64,000 nucleotides of DNA from assembly GCF_900104745.1 (NCBI RefSeq), contig NZ_LT629732.1:1488001-1552000 (forward strand), written 5' to 3'. The notes beneath the pieces were generated by a model that had not been told where the DNA came from, made no database searches, and was given only the letters and a program-made list of their open reading frames with translations. Below are positions 2,335-28,634 of this stretch, piece after piece; within the stretch, counting starts at the first letter, position 1; every line of letters begins with the position of its first letter. The position numbers and the translations under genes are program-made. This stretch comes from Actinopolymorpha singaporensis. Lineage in GTDB: Bacteria > Actinomycetota > Actinomycetes > Propionibacteriales > Actinopolymorphaceae.

Positions 2335-3789
2335 TCAGGCGTGGTCGGTGACCGTCCGGCGTCGGTCCGCTTCGGCCTCCGCCGGCCACCGGTAGACGTC
2401 GTGGGCGATCGCGAGGCGACGGGCGCGGTAGGCCGGGGAGCTGTCCGGCAGCACGTGCTCGACCGGATGGTCGCCGCGCAGTTGGGCCGGGTCCAGCCGG
2501 TCGGTGACGATCGGCCGGACGGCCAGGGGGCGGGTGGGCCCGGGGACCGGTATCCGACCCAGCGCGCGGCGCACGGCGGAGGTCCCTGCCGGACCGAGCA
2601 TGCGCATCACGCCGGCCCGGGCCTCCAGGTCGAAGGCCCGCAACCGTTCGGCTCGGCCGGCCCGATGGCCGGTGAAGCGCGCCAGGTCGCCCAGCAGCTG
2701 CGCCATGGCCAGGTGTCCGGTCGGCGTCGGCAGTCGCGCACACGTGGCAGCCAGCTCGGTCCGTACGGCGGGGTCCAGCAGCCGTGCACACGCCGCCGCG
2801 ACGCCGGGCGCGGAGTCGTCCGCCGCCAGCACGGCGAGCCCGTCCTGGGCCACCGCGGCGGACCGCGCTTGTTGGTCGTCGGTGGCGGTGGCGGCGTTCG
2901 GCACCAGAACGGTCGGGACCCCGGCCGGCAGCAGTTCGTGCACCGCGTTGTAGCCGGCCGCGCTCACCGCCGCGTCGAACGCCGCGAGGTGGCGGGCCAG
3001 CGGGTAGACGCCCACGAGCTCGTGGACGCGAGCCGCCTCCGCGGGTGGCAGCCCGGACCGGGCCAGCGGCGCCCGGGTCACCGCCACCTGCCACTCCGGG
3101 CGGTCGAGAAACGTCCGGATCGCCGCCAGCGCGGGAGTGACCGCGTCGTTGATCGACCCGGCGCCGAGGGTGACCAGGGCGGTGGGCCGTTCCGGGTCGA
3201 GGCCGAGCGCGGCCGCCGCCTCCGGTCGCGACAGTGGGCGACTCTGCGGCCAGACGCTGATCGGAGGCACCCGTACGGCGTTCCGGCGCCCGGCCGTGGC
3301 GCCCCGGTCGGCCTCCGCGGCCAGGTCGCCTGGTTCGACGACCAGGTCGAAGAACGGGTCGGCGGCCAGCGCCCGCCGGTTCGCGCCCGGCCGCCACATC
3401 CCCCGGCGTACCCAGACGAACGCGACCTCGGGGTGTGCGGCCCGGGCCCGGAGCAGTCCGAGGTAGGGCGCCACTCCGTCGAAGACGAAGGTGTCGGCGC
3501 CCGTCTCGGCCAGCAACGCGCCGACGCGCGCGGCGAGGTAACCGTGCCAGGACAGGTGCGGCATCCAGTTGCGGTGGTGGCTCGGGCAGTACTCCGCCCG
3601 CAGCCCGTGCCGGGTCACCACGTGCACGGCCTGGGAGAGGGAGAAGACGATGGGTTCGGCGTCCACCGTGTCCTGGACCGCGAGCGCGACGGCGGCCTGG
3701 CGGGCCAGGTGACCCATCCCGGTGCCGTTGCTGGTGGCCAGGACGATCCGGCGCGCCGGGGCTCGCCCGCGGGCGGAGGTGTCGCTCAT
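2335..3789 (-). CDS. MurG/GT28-like glycosyltransferase
   Basis: A GT-B fold glycosyltransferase of 484 residues that probably uses a nucleotide-sugar donor in surface glycan assembly. The N-terminal glycine-rich loop GTGMGHLAR (22-30) resembles the MurG acceptor-side loop. The C-terminal domain starts near 205 (VTLGAGS) and has the donor-site segment HELLPAGVPTVLVP (284-297), followed by an acidic/Gln stretch DDQQAR typical of GT28 and UGT-type enzymes. I chose the ATG at 3789 because it makes an ATGA overlap with the upstream epimerase gene; the frame stays open further upstream but that part is antisense to wecB. It is the last gene of a minus-strand run with wecB and two other glycosyltransferases. 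The transferred sugar is unknown. Confidence 0.85.
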   Translation of the reverse strand: MSDTSARGRAPARRIVLATSNGTGMGHLARQAAVALAVQDTVDAEPIVFSLSQAVHVVTRHGLRAEYCPSHHRNWMPHLSWHGYLAARVGALLAETGADTFVFDGVAPYLGLLRARAAHPEVAFVWVRRGMWRPGANRRALAADPFFDLVVEPGDLAAEADRGATAGRRNAVRVPPISVWPQSRPLSRPEAAAALGLDPERPTALVTLGAGSINDAVTPALAAIRTFLDRPEWQVAVTRAPLARSGLPPAEAARVHELVGVYPLARHLAAFDAAVSAAGYNAVHELLPAGVPTVLVPNAATATDDQQARSAAVAQDGLAVLAADDSAPGVAAACARLLDPAVRTELAATCARLPTPTGHLAMAQLLGDLARFTGHRAGRAERLRAFDLEARAGVMRMLGPAGTSAVRRALGRIPVPGPTRPLAVRPIVTDRLDPAQLRGDHPVEHVLPDSSPAYRARRLAIAHDVYRWPAEAEADRRRTVTDHA

Positions 3790-4898
3790 CCGGTCGGGTC
3801 GACCGTGCCCGCCGCGGAGGACCGGTCGGCCAGCCAGGCGGAGACGATCGCGGCGATCCGCGGCCCGGCCTGCCCGTCCCACAGCGGCGGAACCGGCCAC
3901 GACGACGGGCGCCCGCGGTCGGCGATCTGCGCCAGTTCGGCCGGCAGCGTGTCCGCCCGTACCAGCCGGTTGGTGCCGTGGCTGATGGTCGCCGGTCGTT
4001 CGGTGGACGGCCGAAGGGTGAGGCAGGGTACGCCGAGCACGGTGGTCTCCTCCTGCACGCCGCCGGAGTCGGTGAGAACCGCCTCGGCGCCGCGGACGAG
4101 CGACATGAACTCGACGTACCCCAGCGGGTCCACGACCTGGATGCCCGGGTGGTCGGCGAAGCCCAACTCGAGCAGCCGGGCCCGGCCGCGCGGGTGCAGC
4201 GGAACCACGATCGGCATCAGGTCGGCGCACTTGTGCATCGCCTGCACCAGCGTGCGGGCCTGCGTCTCGCTGTCGACGTTGCCGGGACGGTGCAGCGTGG
4301 CCACGGCGTACCGGCCGTTCAGCCCGTGCGCATCCTGCGCCGGACCGGGCTCGAAACGGTCCAGGTGGGTGAGCAACGTGTCGATCATCGGGTTGCCGAC
4401 GAGGTGGATCCGGTCGTCCGGTACGCCTTCGCGGGCCAGGTGGCCGATCGCCTCCGGGCTGGTCACGAACGCGAGATCGGACAGCGCGTCGGTGACCTTG
4501 CGGTTGATCTCCTCCGGCATGGTCAGGTCGAAGCTGCGCAGCCCGGCCTCCACGTGTGCCAGCGGTACGCCGAGCTTCGCGCAGACCAGGGCCGCCGCCA
4601 CCGTGGAGTTGACGTCGCCGTACACGACGACGAGTTCGGGCGGCTCGGCTGTGAACAGTTCCTCCAGCGCGACCATCACCGCTGCCGTCTGACTCGCGTG
4701 CGAGCCCGAGCCGACGCCCAGGTTGACGTCCGGGCGGGGCAGGTCCAGCTCCTGGAAGAAGATCTCCGACATCCGGTCGTCGTAGTGCTGTCCGGTGTGC
4801 ACCAGCCGCTGCTCGACCCCGAGGCGGGCGAGTGCGGCCAGCACCGGTGCGGCCTTGGGAAAGTTCGGTCGGGCGCCGGTGATGTGCACGACGGTCAC
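3786..4898 (-). CDS. wecB: UDP-N-acetylglucosamine 2-epimerase (non-hydrolysing)
   Basis: Interconverts UDP-GlcNAc and UDP-ManNAc in the cytoplasm, the first step toward UDP-ManNAcA for teichuronic-acid or capsule-like polymers. At 370 residues it has the normal length of the family. Signatures: GARPNFPKAAP (8-18), HTGQHYDDRMSE (35-46), YGDVNST (93-99), HVEAGLRS (115-122), DSGGVQEE (277-284) and RPSTERP (296-302), the last two lining the UDP site. The start is GTG, overlapping the stop of the upstream glycosyltransferase (GTGA), and the stop overlaps the next ATG. A second, only partly similar wecB lies at 20173-21300. Confidence 0.95.
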   Translation of the reverse strand: MTVVHITGARPNFPKAAPVLAALARLGVEQRLVHTGQHYDDRMSEIFFQELDLPRPDVNLGVGSGSHASQTAAVMVALEELFTAEPPELVVVYGDVNSTVAAALVCAKLGVPLAHVEAGLRSFDLTMPEEINRKVTDALSDLAFVTSPEAIGHLAREGVPDDRIHLVGNPMIDTLLTHLDRFEPGPAQDAHGLNGRYAVATLHRPGNVDSETQARTLVQAMHKCADLMPIVVPLHPRGRARLLELGFADHPGIQVVDPLGYVEFMSLVRGAEAVLTDSGGVQEETTVLGVPCLTLRPSTERPATISHGTNRLVRADTLPAELAQIADRGRPSSWPVPPLWDGQAGPRIAAIVSAWLADRSSAAGTVDPTG

Positions 4899-16458: not shown

Positions 16459-16471
16459 TAGGGTGCGGAGC
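16459..16471 (+). promoter_or_regulatory. -10 element for leaderless transcript
   Basis: TAGGGT at 16459-16464 is followed by 7 nt and the GTG at 16472. The same TAGGGT-N7-GTG arrangement is seen at 48189. It also argues against the GTG at 16463, which lies inside the -10. Confidence 0.55.
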
Positions 16472-17725
16472 GTGCGTGACCTCGCTGTCGTCGGTCTTGG
16501 ATACGTCGGTCTTCCCTTGGTCCGTGAGGCCTGCCGGGCGGGACTTCGAGTCGTCGGACTCGATGTCTCTCCGCGCGTGGTCGCGGGCCTGGCAGCCGGG
16601 CGTTCCCACATCGACGATCTCTCCGATGCCGACGTGACCGCCATGCTGGCCGCCGGGCTGACCGTGACCACAGACGCCGACGAGGCGTTGAGTTCGGTGG
16701 GCACGGTGGTGATCTGCGTGCCGACGCCGCTCGACGACGACGGCGGCCCCGACCTGATGGCGGTGCGGTCGGCCGCAGCCACCGTGGCGGACCATCTGCG
16801 GCCGGGCATGCTGGTCGTGCTCGAGTCGACGACCTATCCCGGTACCACCGACGAGGTGGTACGCCCGATCCTGGAGAAGTCCGGGCTGACCGCCGGGGTG
16901 CAGTTCGCGTTGGCGTTCTCGCCCGAACGCATCGACCCCGGCAACCCCACCTACGGCCTGCGCAACACCCCGAAGGTGGTCGGCGGGCACACAGCGCAAT
17001 GCACCGAGCGGGCGGTGGACTTCTACGGCCGGATCTGTGACCGGGTGGTGCGGGCGAAGGGCACCCGCGAGGCCGAGATGGCCAAGCTGCTGGAGAACAC
17101 CTACCGGCACGTGAACATCGCTCTGGTCAACGAGATGGCGATCTTCTGCCACGAACTCGGCATCGACCTGCGGGACGCGATCGAGGCGGCGGCCACCAAG
17201 CCGTTCGGGTTCCAGGCCTTCCACCCCGGCCCCGGTGTGGGCGGGCACTGCATCCCGATCGACCCCAACTACCTGTCGTACAAGGTCAAACGGCTCGGTT
17301 ACCCGTTCCGGTTCGTGGAGCTGGCCCAGGAGATCAACCAGCGGATGCCGTCCTACGTCGCCCAGCGGGTCCAGGACCTCGTCAACGACGCCGGCAAGTC
17401 GGTACGCGGGTCCACGGTGCTGATCCTCGGGGTCACCTACAAGCCGAACATCGCCGACCAGCGTGAGTCGCCGTCGCGACCGGTGGCCCGCCGGCTGCGC
17501 CGGATGGGCACCAACCTGGTCTTCCACGACCCCTACGTCACCGAGTGGGAGGTCGACGGGGAGCCGGTACCGCGGGTGGACGACCTGGACGAGGCCCTGG
17601 ACACCGCCGACCTGGCCCTCCTGCTGCAGGACCACGCCGTCTACGACCCGCAGACCCTCTCCCGCGCGCGGCTGCTGTTCGACACCCGTGGGCGGGTCCG
17701 CGACGGGACGGCCGAGGTCCTCTGA
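16472..17725 (+). CDS. wecC: UDP-N-acetyl-D-mannosamine (UDP-sugar) dehydrogenase
   Basis: Oxidises UDP-ManNAc to UDP-ManNAcA with two NAD+; 417 residues, typical length. N-terminal Rossmann motif VGLGYVGLP (7-15), central FSPERIDPGNPTYGL segment, and the catalytic cysteine in GVGGHCIPIDP (Cys260). The C-terminal UDP-binding domain has LGVTYKPNIADQRESPSRPVA. The start is taken from the leaderless promoter. The stop overlaps the next ATG by one base (TGATG), so it is coupled to a glycosyltransferase. UDP-glucose or UDP-GlcNAc dehydrogenases are related; two neighbouring wecB genes favour UDP-ManNAc. Confidence 0.9.
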   Translation: MRDLAVVGLGYVGLPLVREACRAGLRVVGLDVSPRVVAGLAAGRSHIDDLSDADVTAMLAAGLTVTTDADEALSSVGTVVICVPTPLDDDGGPDLMAVRSAAATVADHLRPGMLVVLESTTYPGTTDEVVRPILEKSGLTAGVQFALAFSPERIDPGNPTYGLRNTPKVVGGHTAQCTERAVDFYGRICDRVVRAKGTREAEMAKLLENTYRHVNIALVNEMAIFCHELGIDLRDAIEAAATKPFGFQAFHPGPGVGGHCIPIDPNYLSYKVKRLGYPFRFVELAQEINQRMPSYVAQRVQDLVNDAGKSVRGSTVLILGVTYKPNIADQRESPSRPVARRLRRMGTNLVFHDPYVTEWEVDGEPVPRVDDLDEALDTADLALLLQDHAVYDPQTLSRARLLFDTRGRVRDGTAEVL

Positions 17726-18852
17726 TGCCCGGCCTGCGCGTACTCGTGTGCACCGTCGTGCACCATCCGCAGGACGCGCGCATCCTTCACCGGCAGATCC
17801 GGGCCATGCTGGACGCCGGACACTCGGTGACCTACGCCGCGCCCTTCTCGGCGTACGCCACCACGGCCTGGCCGGAGCTGACGGCGGTCGACCTGCCTCG
17901 GGCGCTGGGCCGGCACCGCTCCGACGCGCTCCGCGAGGCCCGGCGCGTCCTGCGAACCCACGGGGCGGACGCCGACGTGGTGTTGCTGCACGACCCTGAG
18001 CTGCTCCTCGTCCTGCCCGGCCTCGACCTTCCCGGCGCGGTGGTGTGGGACGTGCACGAGGACACCGGTGCGGCTCTGGTGGCCAAGAGCTGGCTTCCCG
18101 GTGCCGTGCGGCCGCTGGCCCGGGCGGGCGTGCGGATGGTCGAGGGGTGGGCCGAACGCAACCTCCGGCTGATCCTCGCCGAGCCGGGCTACCGCAGTCG
18201 GTTCAGGCGGATCCACCCGGTCGTGCCCAACACCACCTACGTGCCCGACTCGGTGGAACCGTCCGGCCGGGACCGGGTGGTCTACGTCGGGCATCTGTCG
18301 GTCGCCCGCGGCGTCGACGTGATGCTCGAGACCGCACGGCGGCTGGCCGGCAGCGGGCTGGAGATCGACGTGGTGGGGCACGCCGACTCCTACTCCCGCC
18401 GGGCGCTGGTCCGCGCCCAGCAGGACGGCTTCCTGCGCTGGCACGGCTACGTCCCCAACGACAGGGCGCTGGCGCTGGTCGACGGCGCCATGTGCGGCCT
18501 GTCCCTGCTGCGCGACCTGCCCAACTACCGCCACTCGATGCCCACCAAGGTGCTGGAGTACATGGCTCGCGGCGTCCCCGTGGTCTCCACCCCCCTGCCG
18601 GCGGCGGTGTCCCTGATCCAGGTGAACAAGTGCGGGCTCGTGGTGCCCTTCGACGATGCCGAGGCCACCGTGACCGGGATCCTGCGGCTGCGCGACGACA
18701 CGGAGCTGCGGGCCTCGATGGCAAAGCGCGGGCACGCGGCGGCGCTTACCGGCTACCACTGGCCGCAGACCGCCCGGGAGTTCCTGATGCGACTGGAGGC
18801 CTGGGCGCACGCGGCCCGGCCACACCAGTGCATCACCCTCGGCAGCCTCTGA
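17725..18852 (+). CDS. GT4-family glycosyltransferase
   Basis: A GT-B enzyme of 375 residues. The N-terminal acceptor domain has HHPQDARILHRQIRAMLDAGHSV, a form seen in many surface polysaccharide glycosyltransferases. The donor domain starts near 190 (VVYVGHLSVARGVDVMLETARRL) and has HSMPTKVLEYMARGVPVVST (about 270-290), the ExxA-type GT4 motif with K-x-x-E. The ATG shares one base with the dehydrogenase stop, so the two proteins are made together; it is a good candidate for the ManNAcA transferase, by inference only. Confidence 0.88.
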   Translation: MPGLRVLVCTVVHHPQDARILHRQIRAMLDAGHSVTYAAPFSAYATTAWPELTAVDLPRALGRHRSDALREARRVLRTHGADADVVLLHDPELLLVLPGLDLPGAVVWDVHEDTGAALVAKSWLPGAVRPLARAGVRMVEGWAERNLRLILAEPGYRSRFRRIHPVVPNTTYVPDSVEPSGRDRVVYVGHLSVARGVDVMLETARRLAGSGLEIDVVGHADSYSRRALVRAQQDGFLRWHGYVPNDRALALVDGAMCGLSLLRDLPNYRHSMPTKVLEYMARGVPVVSTPLPAAVSLIQVNKCGLVVPFDDAEATVTGILRLRDDTELRASMAKRGHAAALTGYHWPQTAREFLMRLEAWAHAARPHQCITLGSL

Positions 18853-18885
18853 CTCGCCCGGTCGAGGGTCGCGGGGCGCATCGGT

Positions 18886-19341
18886 TCAGAGCAGGGCGTT
18901 GATGATCCCCAGCAACGAGGCGAACCGCAGCAGCCGGCCGACGAAGCCGACCACCACGAACAACGTGATCGACACCCGGAGCTGGCCGGCCAGCACCGAG
19001 ACCACGGCGAACGGCGGGAATCCCAGCGCCGCCGAGACGAGCAGCACCACCGCGGCCAGCCACGGCCGGTCACCGATCCGGCGCTGCCAGGTGAGGAACG
19101 CGTCCCGCCACTTCGGCGACTCGGTCTTCTTGCGTACCCACCGCCACTCCATCGAGTTGCGGCCGATCAGGAAGAACGCCACCTTGCCCACCATCTGCCC
19201 GCCGGCCGCCGCGGCTGCGACCAGCCAGATGGAGTGGCCGGTGAAGGTGGCGGCCACCGCGCCGACGTACGCCTCGGCGTTGAGCAGCGGGATCAGCGCG
19301 GACGCGATGCAGTAGCAGAACGTCGCGGTGAGCAGTCCCAT
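18886..19341 (-). CDS. small VTT/DedA-type membrane protein
   Basis: 151 residues with about four hydrophobic segments (roughly 8-28, 34-58, 92-110, 118-145). The pattern matches SNARE-associated/VTT (DedA-like) proteins: a first polar-containing helix pair, GGQMVGKVAFFLIGR, and a second re-entrant-like region with FPPFAVVSVLAGQLRVSITLFVVVGFVGRLLRF. DedA-family proteins have been linked to movement of polyprenyl and phospholipids across the membrane. The ATG shares one base with the stop of the CDP-alcohol phosphatidyltransferase gene upstream, so the two are coupled. It is shorter than full DedA proteins (about 200 residues). Function in lipid handling is inference. Confidence 0.75.
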   Translation of the reverse strand: MGLLTATFCYCIASALIPLLNAEAYVGAVAATFTGHSIWLVAAAAAGGQMVGKVAFFLIGRNSMEWRWVRKKTESPKWRDAFLTWQRRIGDRPWLAAVVLLVSAALGFPPFAVVSVLAGQLRVSITLFVVVGFVGRLLRFASLLGIINALL

Positions 19342-20033
19342 CAGGCCGCCTGGCCCGGTTGCTCTGCCTGCTCTGTCGGCGCCGCCTGGGCGTGGGCCGC
19401 CGGGTTCGGCCGGCCGGCCGTCTGCGGAAGCGGCAGTCCGAGCCGGTTGAGCCGGACCAGCGACCAGACCTTGACCGCGAGCAGGCCGAGCGCCACCGCG
19501 GTGCACAGGAGTACCGAATGGGTGAACACCATGAGCAGCGCCACCGCCGAGGAGTTGGCGGCCTTGCCCGGCTTGGACCAGTTCGCCAGCCAGATCGGCC
19601 GGTCGACCAGGTGGAAGTAGTTGGGGCTGCGCAGCGGCCAGGCCAGGAACGCCAGCGACACGAACGTGTCCACGACCGCGAACTCGAGCAGGAAGATCCC
19701 TACCGGCAGCGCCATCGCCGGCTCCAGCCAGACCAGCCCGACGTAGAACGCGCCCGCGCACAGCCGGTCGCTCACGATGTCGAACACCGCGCCGATCCGG
19801 GTCTCGGTGTCGGTGAGCCGGGCCAGGGCGCCGTCGGCCATGTCGCCCACCCAGTAGACCGCCAGCGCGACGAGCAGGAGGGTCAGCGACCGGTCGTACG
19901 CGGCGTACAACGCGACGCCCACGGACGCCACGGTGCGGACGAAGGTGACGACGGTCGCACCGGTGAGCAGGCGTTCGGCCTCCGGGCGCTGCCAGCCCCG
20001 CTCCGCGCGGGCCGAGGTGGTCATGGTCGCCAT
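19341..20033 (-). CDS. CDP-alcohol phosphatidyltransferase family protein
   Basis: A 230-residue integral membrane enzyme of the CDP-OH_P_transf family, which moves a phosphate-linked group from a CDP-lipid or CDP-alcohol to an alcohol. The signature D-x2-DG-x2-AR-x8-G-x3-D-x3-D is perfect (DMADGALAR...GAVFDIVSD, about 60-85). Around six TM segments follow, and the last ~30 residues are a Pro/Ala/Gln-rich tail. The ATG at 20033 was chosen over upstream in-frame starts because the extension is low-complexity and antisense-like. Lying between two ManNAcA modules and coupled to a VTT protein, it may make a lipid anchor or inositol-type lipid for the glycan, but phosphatidylglycerol-type synthesis cannot be excluded. 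Confidence 0.85.
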   Translation of the reverse strand: MATMTTSARAERGWQRPEAERLLTGATVVTFVRTVASVGVALYAAYDRSLTLLLVALAVYWVGDMADGALARLTDTETRIGAVFDIVSDRLCAGAFYVGLVWLEPAMALPVGIFLLEFAVVDTFVSLAFLAWPLRSPNYFHLVDRPIWLANWSKPGKAANSSAVALLMVFTHSVLLCTAVALGLLAVKVWSLVRLNRLGLPLPQTAGRPNPAAHAQAAPTEQAEQPGQAA

Positions 20034-20172
20034 CAGTCCCACCCCTTGCGGTACCGCCCGGTGACGTCGTAAGGCCACACCATAACGGGTGATCGGCGGT
20101 GGACGGCGCGTACCGGACCAGGGATGGGGCCACCGGACGGACTGGGAGGAATGTGCTCCGGAGAACGGACGG

Positions 20173-21300
20173 TCAGCCCGCCTCCAGCGCCTCGACTGTC
20201 CGGCGCGCGGCGTGCCCGTCGCCGTAGGGGGTGCCGCGTTCGGCCGTCGGGGCCGGCCGGGCGGCCAGCTCCTTGAGCTGGGCGAGGTGCGGGTCGAGGA
20301 CGTTCCAGCCGCCGGCCAGGGTCTCGGTCCACTCGGTCTCCGTACGCAGCGTCGTGCAGGGAACGCCGAGCAGGAACGCCTCCTTCTGCAGGCCACCGGA
20401 GTCGGTGACCACGCCGCGGGAGCCGAGGACAGCGCGCACCATGTCGGGGTAGGCGAGCGGCGGAAGGACGCGCAGGGCCGGCCGGGCCAGGTCGATGCCG
20501 AACTCCGCGCACCGTGCGAGCAGGCGGGGATGGGCGAGCAGGGCGACCGGGACGTCCAACCCGGCGAGCGCGTCGACCACCGCGGCGAGCCGGGCCGGGT
20601 CGTCGGTGTTGTCGGCGCGGTGCACGGTCGCGACCAGGTAGCCGTCGGGCTCGCCGCCGACGGCCTCGTGGAGTTCGGCGGGCAGGGGCGTGCCGGCCAC
20701 GGCGTCGCGTACGCCGAAGCACACGTCGGTCATCACGTCGCCCACCAGGACCGAGCGGGCGGCCAGGCCCTCGTCGGACAGGTGGGCCATGGCCGCGTCG
20801 GTCGGCGCGAGCAGCAGGTCGGCGGCGTGGTCGGTGAGGACGCGGTTGTGTTCCTCGGGCATCCGCCGGTTGAACGACCGCAGCCCCGCCTCGAGGTGCG
20901 CGACCCGCAGGTGCTGCTTCACCGCGGACAGTGTGCCGGCCAGGGTGGAGTTGGTGTCGCCGTACACCAGCACCCAGTCCGGACGCCGCTGCGCCAGCAC
21001 CGGGTCCAGAGCGGTCAGCATCGCGCCGGTCTGCGCGCCGTGCGTGCCCGAGCCCACGCCGAGATGGACGTCCGGCGCGGGTATCGCGAGGTCGGTGAAG
21101 AACACCTCCGACATCCGGGTGTCGTAGTGCTGACCGGTGTGCACGATCACGTGCCGGTGTCCGGTCGCGGCGAACGCGGCGGCGACCGGGGCCAGCTTGA
21201 CGAACTGCGGCCGGGCGCCCACGACGCTCAGCACCGTCAGCGGGCGCACTGGACGCCCGGCTTGCTCGGCTTGCTCTGGTTGCTCTGGATGCATGGTCAC
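20173..21300 (-). CDS. wecB: UDP-N-acetylglucosamine 2-epimerase, second copy
   Basis: Second non-hydrolysing epimerase of the window, 375 residues. GARPQFVKLAP (28-38), HTGQHYDTRMSE (54-65), YGDTNST (113-119), HLEAGLRS (135-142) and DSGGLQKEAF (about 300) are present. It differs from the first copy (3786-4898): DSGGLQKE instead of DSGGVQEE and RTETEW in place of the RPSTERP segment. These residues line the active site and allosteric UDP-GlcNAc site, so the two enzymes may differ in control or substrate. The start is a GTG with GAGGAG 5 nt upstream; an ATG at 21294 is an alternative. It is divergent from a second dehydrogenase gene. Confidence 0.92.
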   Translation of the reverse strand: MTMHPEQPEQAEQAGRPVRPLTVLSVVGARPQFVKLAPVAAAFAATGHRHVIVHTGQHYDTRMSEVFFTDLAIPAPDVHLGVGSGTHGAQTGAMLTALDPVLAQRRPDWVLVYGDTNSTLAGTLSAVKQHLRVAHLEAGLRSFNRRMPEEHNRVLTDHAADLLLAPTDAAMAHLSDEGLAARSVLVGDVMTDVCFGVRDAVAGTPLPAELHEAVGGEPDGYLVATVHRADNTDDPARLAAVVDALAGLDVPVALLAHPRLLARCAEFGIDLARPALRVLPPLAYPDMVRAVLGSRGVVTDSGGLQKEAFLLGVPCTTLRTETEWTETLAGGWNVLDPHLAQLKELAARPAPTAERGTPYGDGHAARRTVEALEAG

Positions 21301-21459
21301 TGCGGCTCCTCGAGGTGAGCCGGCACCTCGAGGAGACGCCGGCGACCTGCCCGGAACGTTAGCGGCGCGTCACACTCCGTACCGGACTTCGCGGCAGGTT
21401 ACCCTAGCCAGCGACCCGCCGAAGTCCTCGGATCCCTTCCCAGGAAGACGTGTTGCACC

Positions 21460-22785
21460 GTGAAGATCACCGTTGTCGGCCTGGGCAAGATCGGCTTGCC
21501 ACTGGCCGTCCAGTTCGCCGGTAAGGGCCACAGCGTCACCGGCGTGGACATCAACCCGCGGGTCGTGGAGTCGGTGAACGCCGGTATCGAGCCCTTCCCG
21601 GGCGAGGCAGAGTTGGACGTACGCCTGAAGCAGGCGGTGGCCGACGGAGCGCTGACGGCCACGTCCGACTACTCCCGCGCGGTTCCGCAGGCGGAGTACA
21701 TCGTCGTGGTGGTGCCGCTGTTCGTCGACGACGACGGCGTGCCCGACTTCGGCTGGATGGACTCCGCCACCACGGCGATCGCCGCGCACCTGCGCGCCGG
21801 CACGACCGTGATCTACGAGACCACCCTGCCGGTGGGCACCTGCCGAACCCGCTGGAAACCCGCACTGGAACAGGGATCGGCGCTCACCGAGGGCACCGAC
21901 TTCTGGGTGGTCTTCTCACCCGAACGCGTGCTCACCGGTCGCGTATTCGCCGACCTGCGGAAATATCCGAAACTGATCGGCGGGCTCGACCCGGCCGGTG
22001 CCGCGCGGGCACGGGCGTTCTACGAAGCGGTGCTCGACTTCGACCCCCGGACCGACCTACCGCGGCCCAACGGCGTGTGGGATCTGGGTTCTGCCGAAGC
22101 GGCCGAGCTGGCGAAGCTCGCCGAGACGACCTACCGCGATGTCAACATCGGCTTGGCGAACCAGTTCGCGCGGTTCGCCGAGGCCAACGGCATCGACGCG
22201 CTCGCCGTGATCGACGCTGCCAACTCCCAGCCCTACAGCCACATCCACCGCCCGGGCATCGCCGTGGGCGGGCACTGCATCCCGGTCTACCCGCGGCTGT
22301 ACCTCTGGAACGACCCGGCCGCGACCGTGGTGCGGGCCGCCCGCGACGCCAACGCCGCGATGCCTGCGTACGCCGTCGAGGTGCTGGCGCAGACGTACGG
22401 CGACCTGTCCGACGCACGGGTGGTGGTGCTCGGCGCCGCCTACCGGGGCGGAGTGAAGGAGACCGCGTTCTCCGGGGTGTTCGCGACGGTCGCCGCCCTG
22501 CGCCGCAAGGGCGCCCGGGCGGTCGTACACGACCCGCTGTACGACGACGACGAGCTGACCGCGCTCGGGTTCACCGCCTACCGCCTCGGTACGCCCGTCG
22601 ACGCGGCGATCCTCCAGGCCGACCACCCGGACTACCGCGCGATCGGGCCGGCCGACCTGCCCGGCGTACGCGCCCTGGTCGACGGGCGCGCGGTCACCGA
22701 CGCGAGCCGCTGGGCCGGGGTGCCCCGCCGGGTGATCGGTGTCGCGCCGGCGGGTGAACCCGGCGAGACCGCCGACCGGAGCTGA
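21460..22785 (+). CDS. wecC: UDP-N-acetyl-D-mannosamine-type dehydrogenase, second copy
   Basis: Nucleotide-sugar dehydrogenase of 441 residues. NAD motif VGLGKIGLP (5-13), FSPERVLTGRVFADLRKYPKL, and catalytic Cys273 in AVGGHCIPVYP. FSPERV-x-GRVFADLR is common in UDP-HexNAc dehydrogenases (WbpA/TviB/WecC branch). Unlike the first copy, the C-terminal domain reads LGAAYRGGVKETAFSGV and HDPLYDDDEL, which fits that branch better. The start is GTG at 21460. With the divergent epimerase at 20173 it repeats the two-step route to a UDP-uronate. Confidence 0.88.
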   Translation: MKITVVGLGKIGLPLAVQFAGKGHSVTGVDINPRVVESVNAGIEPFPGEAELDVRLKQAVADGALTATSDYSRAVPQAEYIVVVVPLFVDDDGVPDFGWMDSATTAIAAHLRAGTTVIYETTLPVGTCRTRWKPALEQGSALTEGTDFWVVFSPERVLTGRVFADLRKYPKLIGGLDPAGAARARAFYEAVLDFDPRTDLPRPNGVWDLGSAEAAELAKLAETTYRDVNIGLANQFARFAEANGIDALAVIDAANSQPYSHIHRPGIAVGGHCIPVYPRLYLWNDPAATVVRAARDANAAMPAYAVEVLAQTYGDLSDARVVVLGAAYRGGVKETAFSGVFATVAALRRKGARAVVHDPLYDDDELTALGFTAYRLGTPVDAAILQADHPDYRAIGPADLPGVRALVDGRAVTDASRWAGVPRRVIGVAPAGEPGETADRS

Positions 22786-26478: not shown

Positions 26479-27384
26479 ATGCCCCTCGACTACCGCTTGT
26501 CCCACCTGCAGGCCCTCGAGTCCGAATCCATCCACATCATTCGTGAGGTGGCGGCGGAGTTCGAGCGGCCGGCGCTGCTGTTCTCCGGCGGCAAGGACTC
26601 CTGCGTGATGCTGCGCCTCGCCCAGAAGGCGTTCTGGCCGGCCCGCATTCCGTTCGCCCTTTTGCACGTCGACACCGGGCACAACTTCCCCGAGGTGATC
26701 GACTTCCGCGACCGGCTGGTGGCCGACCTCGGCGTACGCCTGGTGGTCGGCTCGGTGCAGGAGGCCATCGACGAGGGGCGGCTGACCGAGCGTCCCGGGC
26801 AGAGCCGCAACCCGCTGCAGACCCAGGTCCTGCTGGAGACGGTCGAGAAGCACAACTTCGACGCGCTCATGGGCGGGGCGCGCCGCGACGAGGAGAAGGC
26901 CCGCGCGAAGGAACGCGTCTTCTCCTTCCGCGACGAGTTCGGCCAGTGGGACCCCAAGAACCAACGCCCCGAGCTCTGGAACATCTACAACGGCCGGATC
27001 CACCCCGGAGAGTCGATCCGGGCGTTCCCGCTGTCCAACTGGACCGAGCTCGACATCTGGCAGTACATCTCCGACGACAGCGTGGAGATCCCGTCCATCT
27101 ACTTCGCGCACCGGCGCAAGGTGTTCGAACGCGACGGCATGCTGCTCGCGGAGTCGGCGGTCCTGCCCCGGCGGGAGGGCGAGGAGCTGCACGAGGCGAC
27201 GGTCCGTTACCGCACGGTCGGCGACATCTCCTGCACCGGAGCGGTGGAGTCGACCGCGGCCACCGTGGCCGACATCATCACCGAGGTGGCCACCAGCCGG
27301 ATCACCGAGCGCGGCGCGACCCGCGCCGACGACCGGGTGAGCGAGGCCTCGATGGAAGACCGCAAGCGGGAAGGTTATTTCTAG
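26479..27384 (+). CDS. cysD: sulfate adenylyltransferase subunit 2
   Basis: Catalytic subunit of ATP sulfurylase (sulfate + ATP to APS + PPi). 301 residues, almost identical in length to Escherichia coli CysD. PP-loop SGGKDS at 36-41 and the conserved HVDTGHNFPEVI, MGGARRDEEKARAKER and NWTELDIWQYI segments. The start ATG at 26479 gives the canonical LxxLExES-type N-terminus; the frame is open upstream without coding sense. The stop shares a base with the cysN GTG (TAGTG). Confidence 0.97.
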   Translation: MPLDYRLSHLQALESESIHIIREVAAEFERPALLFSGGKDSCVMLRLAQKAFWPARIPFALLHVDTGHNFPEVIDFRDRLVADLGVRLVVGSVQEAIDEGRLTERPGQSRNPLQTQVLLETVEKHNFDALMGGARRDEEKARAKERVFSFRDEFGQWDPKNQRPELWNIYNGRIHPGESIRAFPLSNWTELDIWQYISDDSVEIPSIYFAHRRKVFERDGMLLAESAVLPRREGEELHEATVRYRTVGDISCTGAVESTAATVADIITEVATSRITERGATRADDRVSEASMEDRKREGYF

Positions 27385-28634
27385 TGGATCTCCTGCGCTT
27401 CGCCACGGCGGGCAGCGTCGACGACGGCAAGAGCACCCTGATCGGGCGCCTGCTCTACGACTCCAAGGCGATCTTCGAGGACCAGCTGGAGTCCGTCGAA
27501 CGCACCAGCCGCGACCGGGGCTTCGAGTACACCAACCTCGCGCTGCTCACCGACGGGCTGCGGGCCGAGCGCGAGCAGGGCATCACCATCGACGTGGCGT
27601 ACCGCTACTTCGCCACTCCCAACCGCAAGTTCATCATCGCCGACACCCCTGGCCACATCCAGTACACCCGCAACATGGTGACCGGCGCCTCCAACGCCGA
27701 CCTCGCGCTGGTGCTGGTCGACGCGCGCAACGGCCTGGTCGAGCAGACCCGCCGGCACGCGTTCCTGGTCTCGCTGCTGCGGGTGCCGCACCTGGTCGTC
27801 TGCGTCAACAAGATGGACCTGGTCGACTACGACCAGGAGGTGTACGAGCGGATCAAGCAGGAGTTCCTGGGCTTCGCCACCAAGCTGACGATCCCCGACC
27901 TGCAGGTGATCCCGATCTCCGCGCTCGCCGGCGACAACGTCGTAGAGCGGTCGGCCAACATGCCGTGGTACGACGGCCCGTCGCTGCTGCACCACCTGGA
28001 GAACGTCCACGTCGCCAGCGACCGCAACCTCCAGGACCCCCGGCTGCCGGTGCAGTACGTCATCCGCCCGCACTCCGACGACTACCACGACTACCGCGGG
28101 TACGCCGGGCAGGTGGTCGGCGGGGTGTTCAAGCCCGGTGACGAGGTGATGGTGCTCCCGTCCGGGATGACGTCGCGGATCAAACGCATCGACACCGCCG
28201 ACGGCCCGGTCGACGAGGCGTTCTCACCCATGTCGGTGACGGTGTTGCTCGAGGACGACCTCGACGTCTCCCGCGGCGACCTCATCTGCCGCCCGCACAA
28301 CAAGCCCACGGTCGCGCAGAACCTCAGCGCCATGGTGAGCTGGATGACCGACGCGCCGCTCCGGCCCGGGCAGCGGATCTACGTCAAGCACACCACCCGC
28401 ACCGCGCGGGCGATCGTGAAGAAGCTGCACTACCGGCTCGACGTCAACACCCTGCACCGCGACGAGAGTGCCGAGCAGCTCGCGCTGAACGAGATCGGAA
28501 GGGTCGACCTACGGGTGGCCCAGCCGTTGTTCGTCGACGACTACGCACGCAACCGGCAGACCGGCGGCTTCGTCCTGGTCGACGAGGCCACCAACGTCAC
28601 CGTCGGCGCCGGCATGGTGATGAACGCCGACTAG
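27384..28634 (+). CDS. cysN: sulfate adenylyltransferase subunit 1 (GTPase)
   Basis: Regulatory GTPase that drives APS formation with CysD. 416 residues: G1 GSVDDGKST (10-18), effector region EREQGITIDVAY, G3 DTPGH, G4 NKMD, then two beta-barrel domains. The GTG start overlaps the cysD stop by one base. There is no C-terminal APS kinase domain and no cysC, cysH or sulfate transporter nearby, so the APS made here must be used by enzymes encoded elsewhere. The position next to the glycan genes suggests a role in sulfated products, but ordinary cysteine synthesis is equally possible. Confidence 0.97.
   Translation: MDLLRFATAGSVDDGKSTLIGRLLYDSKAIFEDQLESVERTSRDRGFEYTNLALLTDGLRAEREQGITIDVAYRYFATPNRKFIIADTPGHIQYTRNMVTGASNADLALVLVDARNGLVEQTRRHAFLVSLLRVPHLVVCVNKMDLVDYDQEVYERIKQEFLGFATKLTIPDLQVIPISALAGDNVVERSANMPWYDGPSLLHHLENVHVASDRNLQDPRLPVQYVIRPHSDDYHDYRGYAGQVVGGVFKPGDEVMVLPSGMTSRIKRIDTADGPVDEAFSPMSVTVLLEDDLDVSRGDLICRPHNKPTVAQNLSAMVSWMTDAPLRPGQRIYVKHTTRTARAIVKKLHYRLDVNTLHRDESAEQLALNEIGRVDLRVAQPLFVDDYARNRQTGGFVLVDEATNVTVGAGMVMNAD

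Follow-up and report, generated by a model that had tools for sequence, protein, structure and literature searches.

The window analysed here, a 64,000-base stretch at positions 1488001-1552000 of the single-contig genome (6,403,569 bases) of Actinopolymorpha singaporensis, carries two overlapping genes on its minus strand, behind a short conserved block of upstream sequence. The features are as follows.

19341-20033, minus strand: CDP-alcohol phosphotransferase (CDP-AP), first gene of the pair, 230 amino acids, with its ATG at 20033 and its stop codon at 19343-19341.
18886-19341, minus strand: minimal VTT/DedA gene, second gene of the pair, 151 amino acids, with its ATG at 19341.
19339-19343 (plus-strand positions), minus strand: TGATG stop/start overlap with one base in common, read directly from the sequence; the A that closes the CDP-AP TGA also opens the VTT ATG.
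20060-20097, minus strand: block between wecB and CDP-AP, conserved in four of the five Actinopolymorpha loci aligned; it contains a TATGGT hexamer resembling a -10 element (20084-20079).

The preliminary description of this locus had proposed a CDP-alcohol transferase with an intact catalytic signature, sharing one base with a 151-residue VTT/DedA-like protein, and each of these points was borne out. The signature D64xxDGxxAR(x8)GxxxDxxxD89 is complete and the enzyme scores 39.7 bits against Pfam PF01066 (cut-off 22), while the small protein scores 41.4 bits against PF09335 (cut-off 33.9) over profile positions 4-116 of 123. Upstream of the pair, the rest of the spacer between wecB and CDP-AP varies among the four loci that keep the conserved block, and a scan of 18500-21600 for consensus (sigma-70) promoters and terminators returned nothing. 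The block is a possible separate promoter of the pair, but only a lead, since the four loci that carry it are close relatives, the fifth Actinopolymorpha locus (L045) lacks it and no sigma-70 consensus was matched.

Genome samples of the order, class and phylum were searched with alignments of both families (A1 and A2). In the order sample (147 genomes; E <= 1e-15 for CDP-AP and E <= 1e-12 for VTT), CDP-AP was found in 57 genomes and VTT in 94: both in 57, VTT alone in 37, CDP-AP alone in none and neither in 53 (Fisher p = 7e-16, uncorrected for phylogeny and inflated by shared descent). A same-strand VTT gene lay directly downstream in 55 of the 58 CDP-AP loci of this sample, the exceptions being G004, where the genes diverge (locus L046), G108, whose VTT is on a different contig, and a further CDP-AP copy in G048. 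Within the phylum sample both families occurred in the same 3 of 396 genomes, adjoining each other. Matches to CDP-AP at E <= 1e-10 were present in 58 of 394 class-sample genomes, 17 of which hold full-length members (at least 236 bits); the remaining matches score at most 58 bits and reach no further than about position 121 of 212, the pattern that other CDP-APs should give. Three of the 17 genomes lie outside the order (G452, G576 and G695), and in all three VTT follows downstream with a 4-base overlap. Because few candidates were scored per genome, 7-9 in the phylum and class searches and 20-26 in the order searches, very diverged members may have been missed.

A scan of named genomes, from which the best 80 of 168 relatives were kept, recovered chiefly Nocardioides and MAGs from the same family, together with Knoellia and Janibacter, the nearest named relatives being Actinopolymorpha rutila and A. 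pittospori. VTT was directly downstream on the same strand in 71 of these best 80 loci, with gaps of -4 (36 loci), -1 (19), -11 (4) or +1 to +25 bases (12), so that an overlap of 1, 4 or 11 bases is present in 59 of the 71. For seven of the nine loci without an adjacent VTT, the gene was found elsewhere in the genome; one of these, L130, is an extra CDP-AP copy, its genome having a paired copy as well (L116). None was found for the remaining two (L088 and L091), both MAGs. Some genomes contribute more than one of the 80 loci, and the named set shares members with the other sample, so these locus counts are not independent. The adjacency of CDP-AP and VTT is more than chance, and translational coupling through the overlap is supported. 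A variant arrangement was seen at L057 (9043-10787), where two VTT genes flank one CDP-AP in the order VTT, CDP-AP, VTT, all on the same strand. A mobile origin was considered and rejected: neither protein had a plasmid match, and the 39 pattern-matching stretches in viral contigs encoded no relative.

Residues D64, D67, G68, A71, R72, G81, D85 and D89 of the enzyme are invariant in alignments of 21 and 41 CDP-AP sequences. Its predicted structure (pLDDT 88.9, pTM 0.81) adopts the six-helix fold of solved class I members, with Z scores of 12.8 to the PIP synthase 5d92 (rmsd 3.7, 164 aligned), 12.7 to PgsA1 and 11.5 to both the PS synthase MjPSS and PGP synthase, and a best Foldseek E value of 8e-3 at probability 1.0. 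As helical bundles can give Z values near 13 between themselves, and values within 1 of each other are ties, the identity of the enzyme rests on sequence and fold together. The closest sequence matches are also PIP synthases, but the enzyme falls far below the curated cut-offs, scoring 40.5 bits against the PIP synthase model NF045883 (cut-off 170), 36.2 against the archaetidylinositol phosphate synthase model (cut-off 180) and 25.9 against the ClsA/cardiolipin synthase model NF053678 (cut-off 240). No match to the PgsA model TIGR00560 was obtained at E 0.001, and no PS synthase model matched in the NCBIfam search. Since PgsA (129.2 bits, cut-off 109.1), ClsA (280 bits, cut-off 240) and PIP synthase (265.4 bits, cut-off 170) are each encoded elsewhere in this genome above their NCBIfam cut-offs, the enzyme of the pair is an additional one.

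According to the accessible text of PMC4634129, PIP synthases keep two acceptor-site arginines (R153 and R191 in RsPIPS), whereas no invariant or near-invariant arginine follows R90 among the 41 aligned CDP-AP sequences. Mapping of the acceptor site by alignment onto PIP synthase, PgsA and ClsA proved unreliable beyond helix 3 and was dropped, and for this reason only the absence of an invariant arginine is used here. The second half of the subfamily instead holds its own invariant residues (S136, P137, N138, Y139, F140, D144, N151, W152, S153, K157, N160 and K188 across the 41 sequences), which form the signature SPNYF..VD......NWS...K..N. The enzyme thus has in common with actinobacterial PIP synthases (PgsA1, RsPIPS) the six-helix fold, the catalytic signature and the best PDB match, and differs from them in its score, its arginines and its SPNYF signature. 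By its sequence, this predicted enzyme belongs to a CDP-AP subfamily outside the curated PIP, PGP and cardiolipin synthase families. Six-helix CDP-APs use soluble acceptors, as described in the accessible part of PMC4634129, and by analogy the acceptor is therefore likely to be a small alcohol. The genome also encodes other CDP-APs: two genes about 3 kb apart (L166 and L168, at ~3.165-3.169 Mb), both below every NCBIfam cut-off, and an orphan of 193 amino acids (L165, 1432-2013) with no NCBIfam match at E 1e-10.

The fold and best sequence matches could also fit an isoenzyme of, or replacement for, the enzymes that make PI, PG, cardiolipin, PS or PC, with VTT moving that lipid. We regard this as the strongest of the alternatives but unlikely; the shortfall against the curated cut-offs and the arginine pattern both count against it, as does the lipid context. 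Of the 147 order-sample genomes, 8 gave a PS decarboxylase, none of them among the 57 with CDP-AP, and the search of the A. singaporensis genome itself (G000) found none; a route from PS to PE thus looks unlikely and was set aside. As a product, PC is disfavoured. The available text of PMC6113628 describes PC as ubiquitous in Kribbella and Kribbellaceae, and that of PMC3035274 gives it as the main polar lipid of K. flavida; yet at least 12 of the order-sample genomes that have VTT without CDP-AP belong to family f3, taken here as Kribbella, so that a PC synthase role fits poorly, although Kribbella may have another route to PC. The lipids listed for Actinopolymorphaceae in the same available text (PMC6113628) are DPG, PG, PI and phosphatidylglycolipids, with PC not among them. 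A search of the literature for Actinopolymorpha phospholipids gave nothing pertinent. On the other side, some Nocardioides species are listed with PC and PE (PMC12890105, as far as its accessible text goes), and many members of that genus, not necessarily the same species, carry the pair; for this reason PC counts as no more than disfavoured.

The predicted structure of the 151-residue protein (pLDDT 89.2, pTM 0.80) contains helices at 2-16, 22-32, 38-63, 67-73, 76-91, 93-106, 111-120 and 125-150, an order that agrees with the DedA core of two copies of a re-entrant hairpin plus membrane helix set out in the accessible part of PMC7818093. Invariant residues S14, A15, P18 and E23 flank one helix break, and G107, P109 and P110 the other. 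Comparison of the two halves with hhalign was not significant (probability below 1%, E 0.075-0.14), with the breaks in the same register in all three cuts. As no solved structure resembled the model at E <= 0.001 (Foldseek against the PDB), the fold rests on Pfam and prediction, and as far as these tell, the VTT fold that had been set beforehand as a test of the small protein is not contradicted. No NCBIfam family matched it at E 0.001, UptA models included. The same genome encodes five other PF09335 proteins of 215-462 amino acids, four of them stand-alone DedA proteins (215-245) and one (462) with an added phosphatase-like part, and the UptA models do recognise other DedA proteins encoded there, with scores under the cut-off. 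Given these five, the flipping of undecaprenyl phosphate need not fall to the 151-residue protein, which shares the PF09335 domain with UptA-type and larger DedA proteins but, being so much shorter than they are, is essentially a bare DedA core.

Across the samples the dependence runs one way: a genome with CDP-AP nearly always holds a VTT of this family as well, whereas many genomes have VTT but no CDP-AP (37 of the 94 VTT genomes of the order sample). Our reading is that the enzyme needs VTT and that VTT has a use without the enzyme; because VTT persists where CDP-AP is missing, its substrate cannot be only the lipid made by CDP-AP. Twenty loci were fetched around VTT genes that do not adjoin a CDP-AP, and in two genomes (G016 and G050) an FtsX-like gene, VTT and purC are arranged as in CDP-AP-bearing relatives, minus the CDP-AP. 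In a quick VTT tree of 67 rows, paired and unpaired members are intermixed, with 10 label changes for the paired group against a shuffled mean of 21.7. Six VTTs displaced from their CDP-AP (L161, L170 and L172-L175) form one clade with a support of 99, as would be seen after a single relocation in which VTT was kept, and a seventh (L171) falls elsewhere. The displaced gene at L161 (7815-8285), which shares its clade with displaced VTTs from five other genomes, lies near genes that we take to resemble those of coenzyme F420 synthesis.

This persistence without the enzyme would be expected if VTT served membrane housekeeping as a general scramblase or proton-coupled transporter merely co-regulated with CDP-AP. 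We consider that rather improbable, as all 57 CDP-AP genomes of the order sample also have VTT and the stop/start overlap recurs in unrelated neighbourhoods.

The preliminary description had placed the pair in the service of the neighbouring glycan genes, as a system to make or recycle a lipid anchor or carrier, and the window itself invites this, the pair lying between wecB and a glycosyltransferase gene here and at four other loci of the genus, five of 21 in all. These five carry the full set of the window's glycan genes. At the other 16 loci no match to the window's wecB, wecC, GT4 and WbaP-like genes was found (E <= 1e-10). Among the 80 named loci, a set that overlaps the 21, the full glycan set occurs only at L062 and L063, both Actinopolymorpha; L085 has a single weak wecC-like match (29% identity), and the five glycan genes are unmatched in the remaining 77, within at most 10 kb per side and less at contig ends. 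Outside the genus the pair adjoins various other genes in unrelated neighbourhoods, whose members presumably include purC, purS/purQ, proA and nadD. Recurrence beside wecB/wecC, which had been put forward as a check, thus stands within the genus but not outside it in the loci examined; likewise, the proposition that the pair occurs only without glycan genes holds at the examined loci outside the genus and fails inside it.

A genome of the same genus (G018, 8.0 Mb) is the most direct comparison. Locus L189 of this genome keeps the glycan genes in the same order as the window, with identities of 81.5% for wecB, 84.4% and 86.5% for the wecC-like genes, 77.0% for the glycosyltransferase and 77.8% for the WbaP-like gene, and also keeps cysDN-like genes in order, but at the place of the pair wecB and the glycosyltransferase are 55 bases apart. 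Neither CDP-AP nor VTT was found elsewhere in that genome (95% complete, ~130 contigs). The pair is not the sole difference, since counterparts of the region's hexapeptide transferase and ABC transporter genes are missing there too. With both CDP-AP and VTT missing and the glycan genes kept, we conclude that the two are gained or lost together and that the glycan genes can stand alone. The glycan neighbours are outside the conserved unit, and the pair travels independently of them. The proposed anchor or carrier role is left unsupported, was rejected on synteny and is now very unlikely.

The glycan region has further features of its own. At 26479-28634 lie a CysD-like gene (PAPS_reduct domain) and a gene for a CysN-like GTPase, gene names that are inferred, in a synteny near the glycan genes that G018 retains, which raises the possibility of a sulphated glycan. 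Two genes of the UDP-GlcNAc 2-epimerase family (3786-4898 and 20173-21300) are separated by about 15 kb, and nucleotide-sugar dehydrogenase genes (16463-17725 and 21460-22785) stand on either side of the pair.

That the enzyme might instead make a soluble phosphodiester solute for VTT to move is scarcely credible: AF2299 (Z 11.4) and DIPP synthase (Z 10.6) have the same fold, but the closest folds and sequences are those of lipid-making PIP synthases, even though Z values within 1 count as ties.

The general pattern of such a pairing is already known. Bacillus subtilis has the operon pssA-ybfM-psd (PMC8144471, PMC5063857), and flipping of PE has been proposed as the role of its DedA protein PetA (PMC11474028), all according to the accessible parts of these papers. 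This operon is the nearest precedent of the pair, and the earlier statement that no two-gene system of this kind had been described was too strong. Presumably PetA is YbfM, and in both systems a CDP-AP gene is coupled to a DedA-superfamily gene, joining synthesis to proposed transbilayer movement of lipid; in the Bacillus operon, however, the CDP-AP is a PS synthase followed by a decarboxylase, whereas here no PS decarboxylase was found in the genome or in any of the 57 order-sample genomes with CDP-AP, and the VTT has only 151 amino acids. Another short protein, the archaeal Mt2055 (168 amino acids), is similarly little more than a repeated unit of re-entrant loop and membrane helix, but it belongs to PF06695, and the available text of PMC7818093 mentions no partner enzyme. 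No description of the present CDP-AP and DedA pair was found in the open-access literature searched, in the parts of papers that were accessible. What is new here is a CDP-AP subfamily outside the assigned ones, the 151-residue partner and the one-way dependence.

We propose that the two genes act as one unit that both makes and moves an accessory phospholipid, and assign this reading a probability of roughly 0.58. The pairing of lipid synthesis with lipid translocation, already suggested in the preliminary description, is plausible; the identity and predicted fold of the enzyme, the family of the VTT protein and the coupling of the genes are likewise borne out. Judging from its fold and family, the six-helix CDP-AP, with its active site facing the cytosol, would transfer phosphatidyl from CDP-diacylglycerol to a small soluble alcohol, so that an accessory phospholipid would be made on the inner leaflet. 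VTT, as its family suggests, may then equilibrate or flip that phospholipid to the outer leaflet, and the overlapping genes would keep the two proteins in a fixed ratio. A bolder version holds that the lipid is a phospholipid class of Propionibacteriales new to description, that a new CDP-AP subfamily makes it, and that a minimal DedA translocase dedicated to it carries it to the outer leaflet; this is a tentative and somewhat doubtful proposal.

Assignments of cargo to DedA/VTT proteins are few: the accessible text of PMC11474028 gives undecaprenyl phosphate and PE for bacterial members, and phospholipid scrambling is described, in sources likewise available in part, for TMEM41B and VMP1. If a translocase moves what its partner enzyme makes, identifying that product also identifies the cargo, and an enzyme tied to a very small VTT would offer a direct route to it, the product being determined first and transport by the partner afterwards. 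Polar-lipid profiles, such as those of Nocardioides in the accessible part of PMC12890105, list unidentified phospholipids, and the pair could supply the enzyme for one of them.
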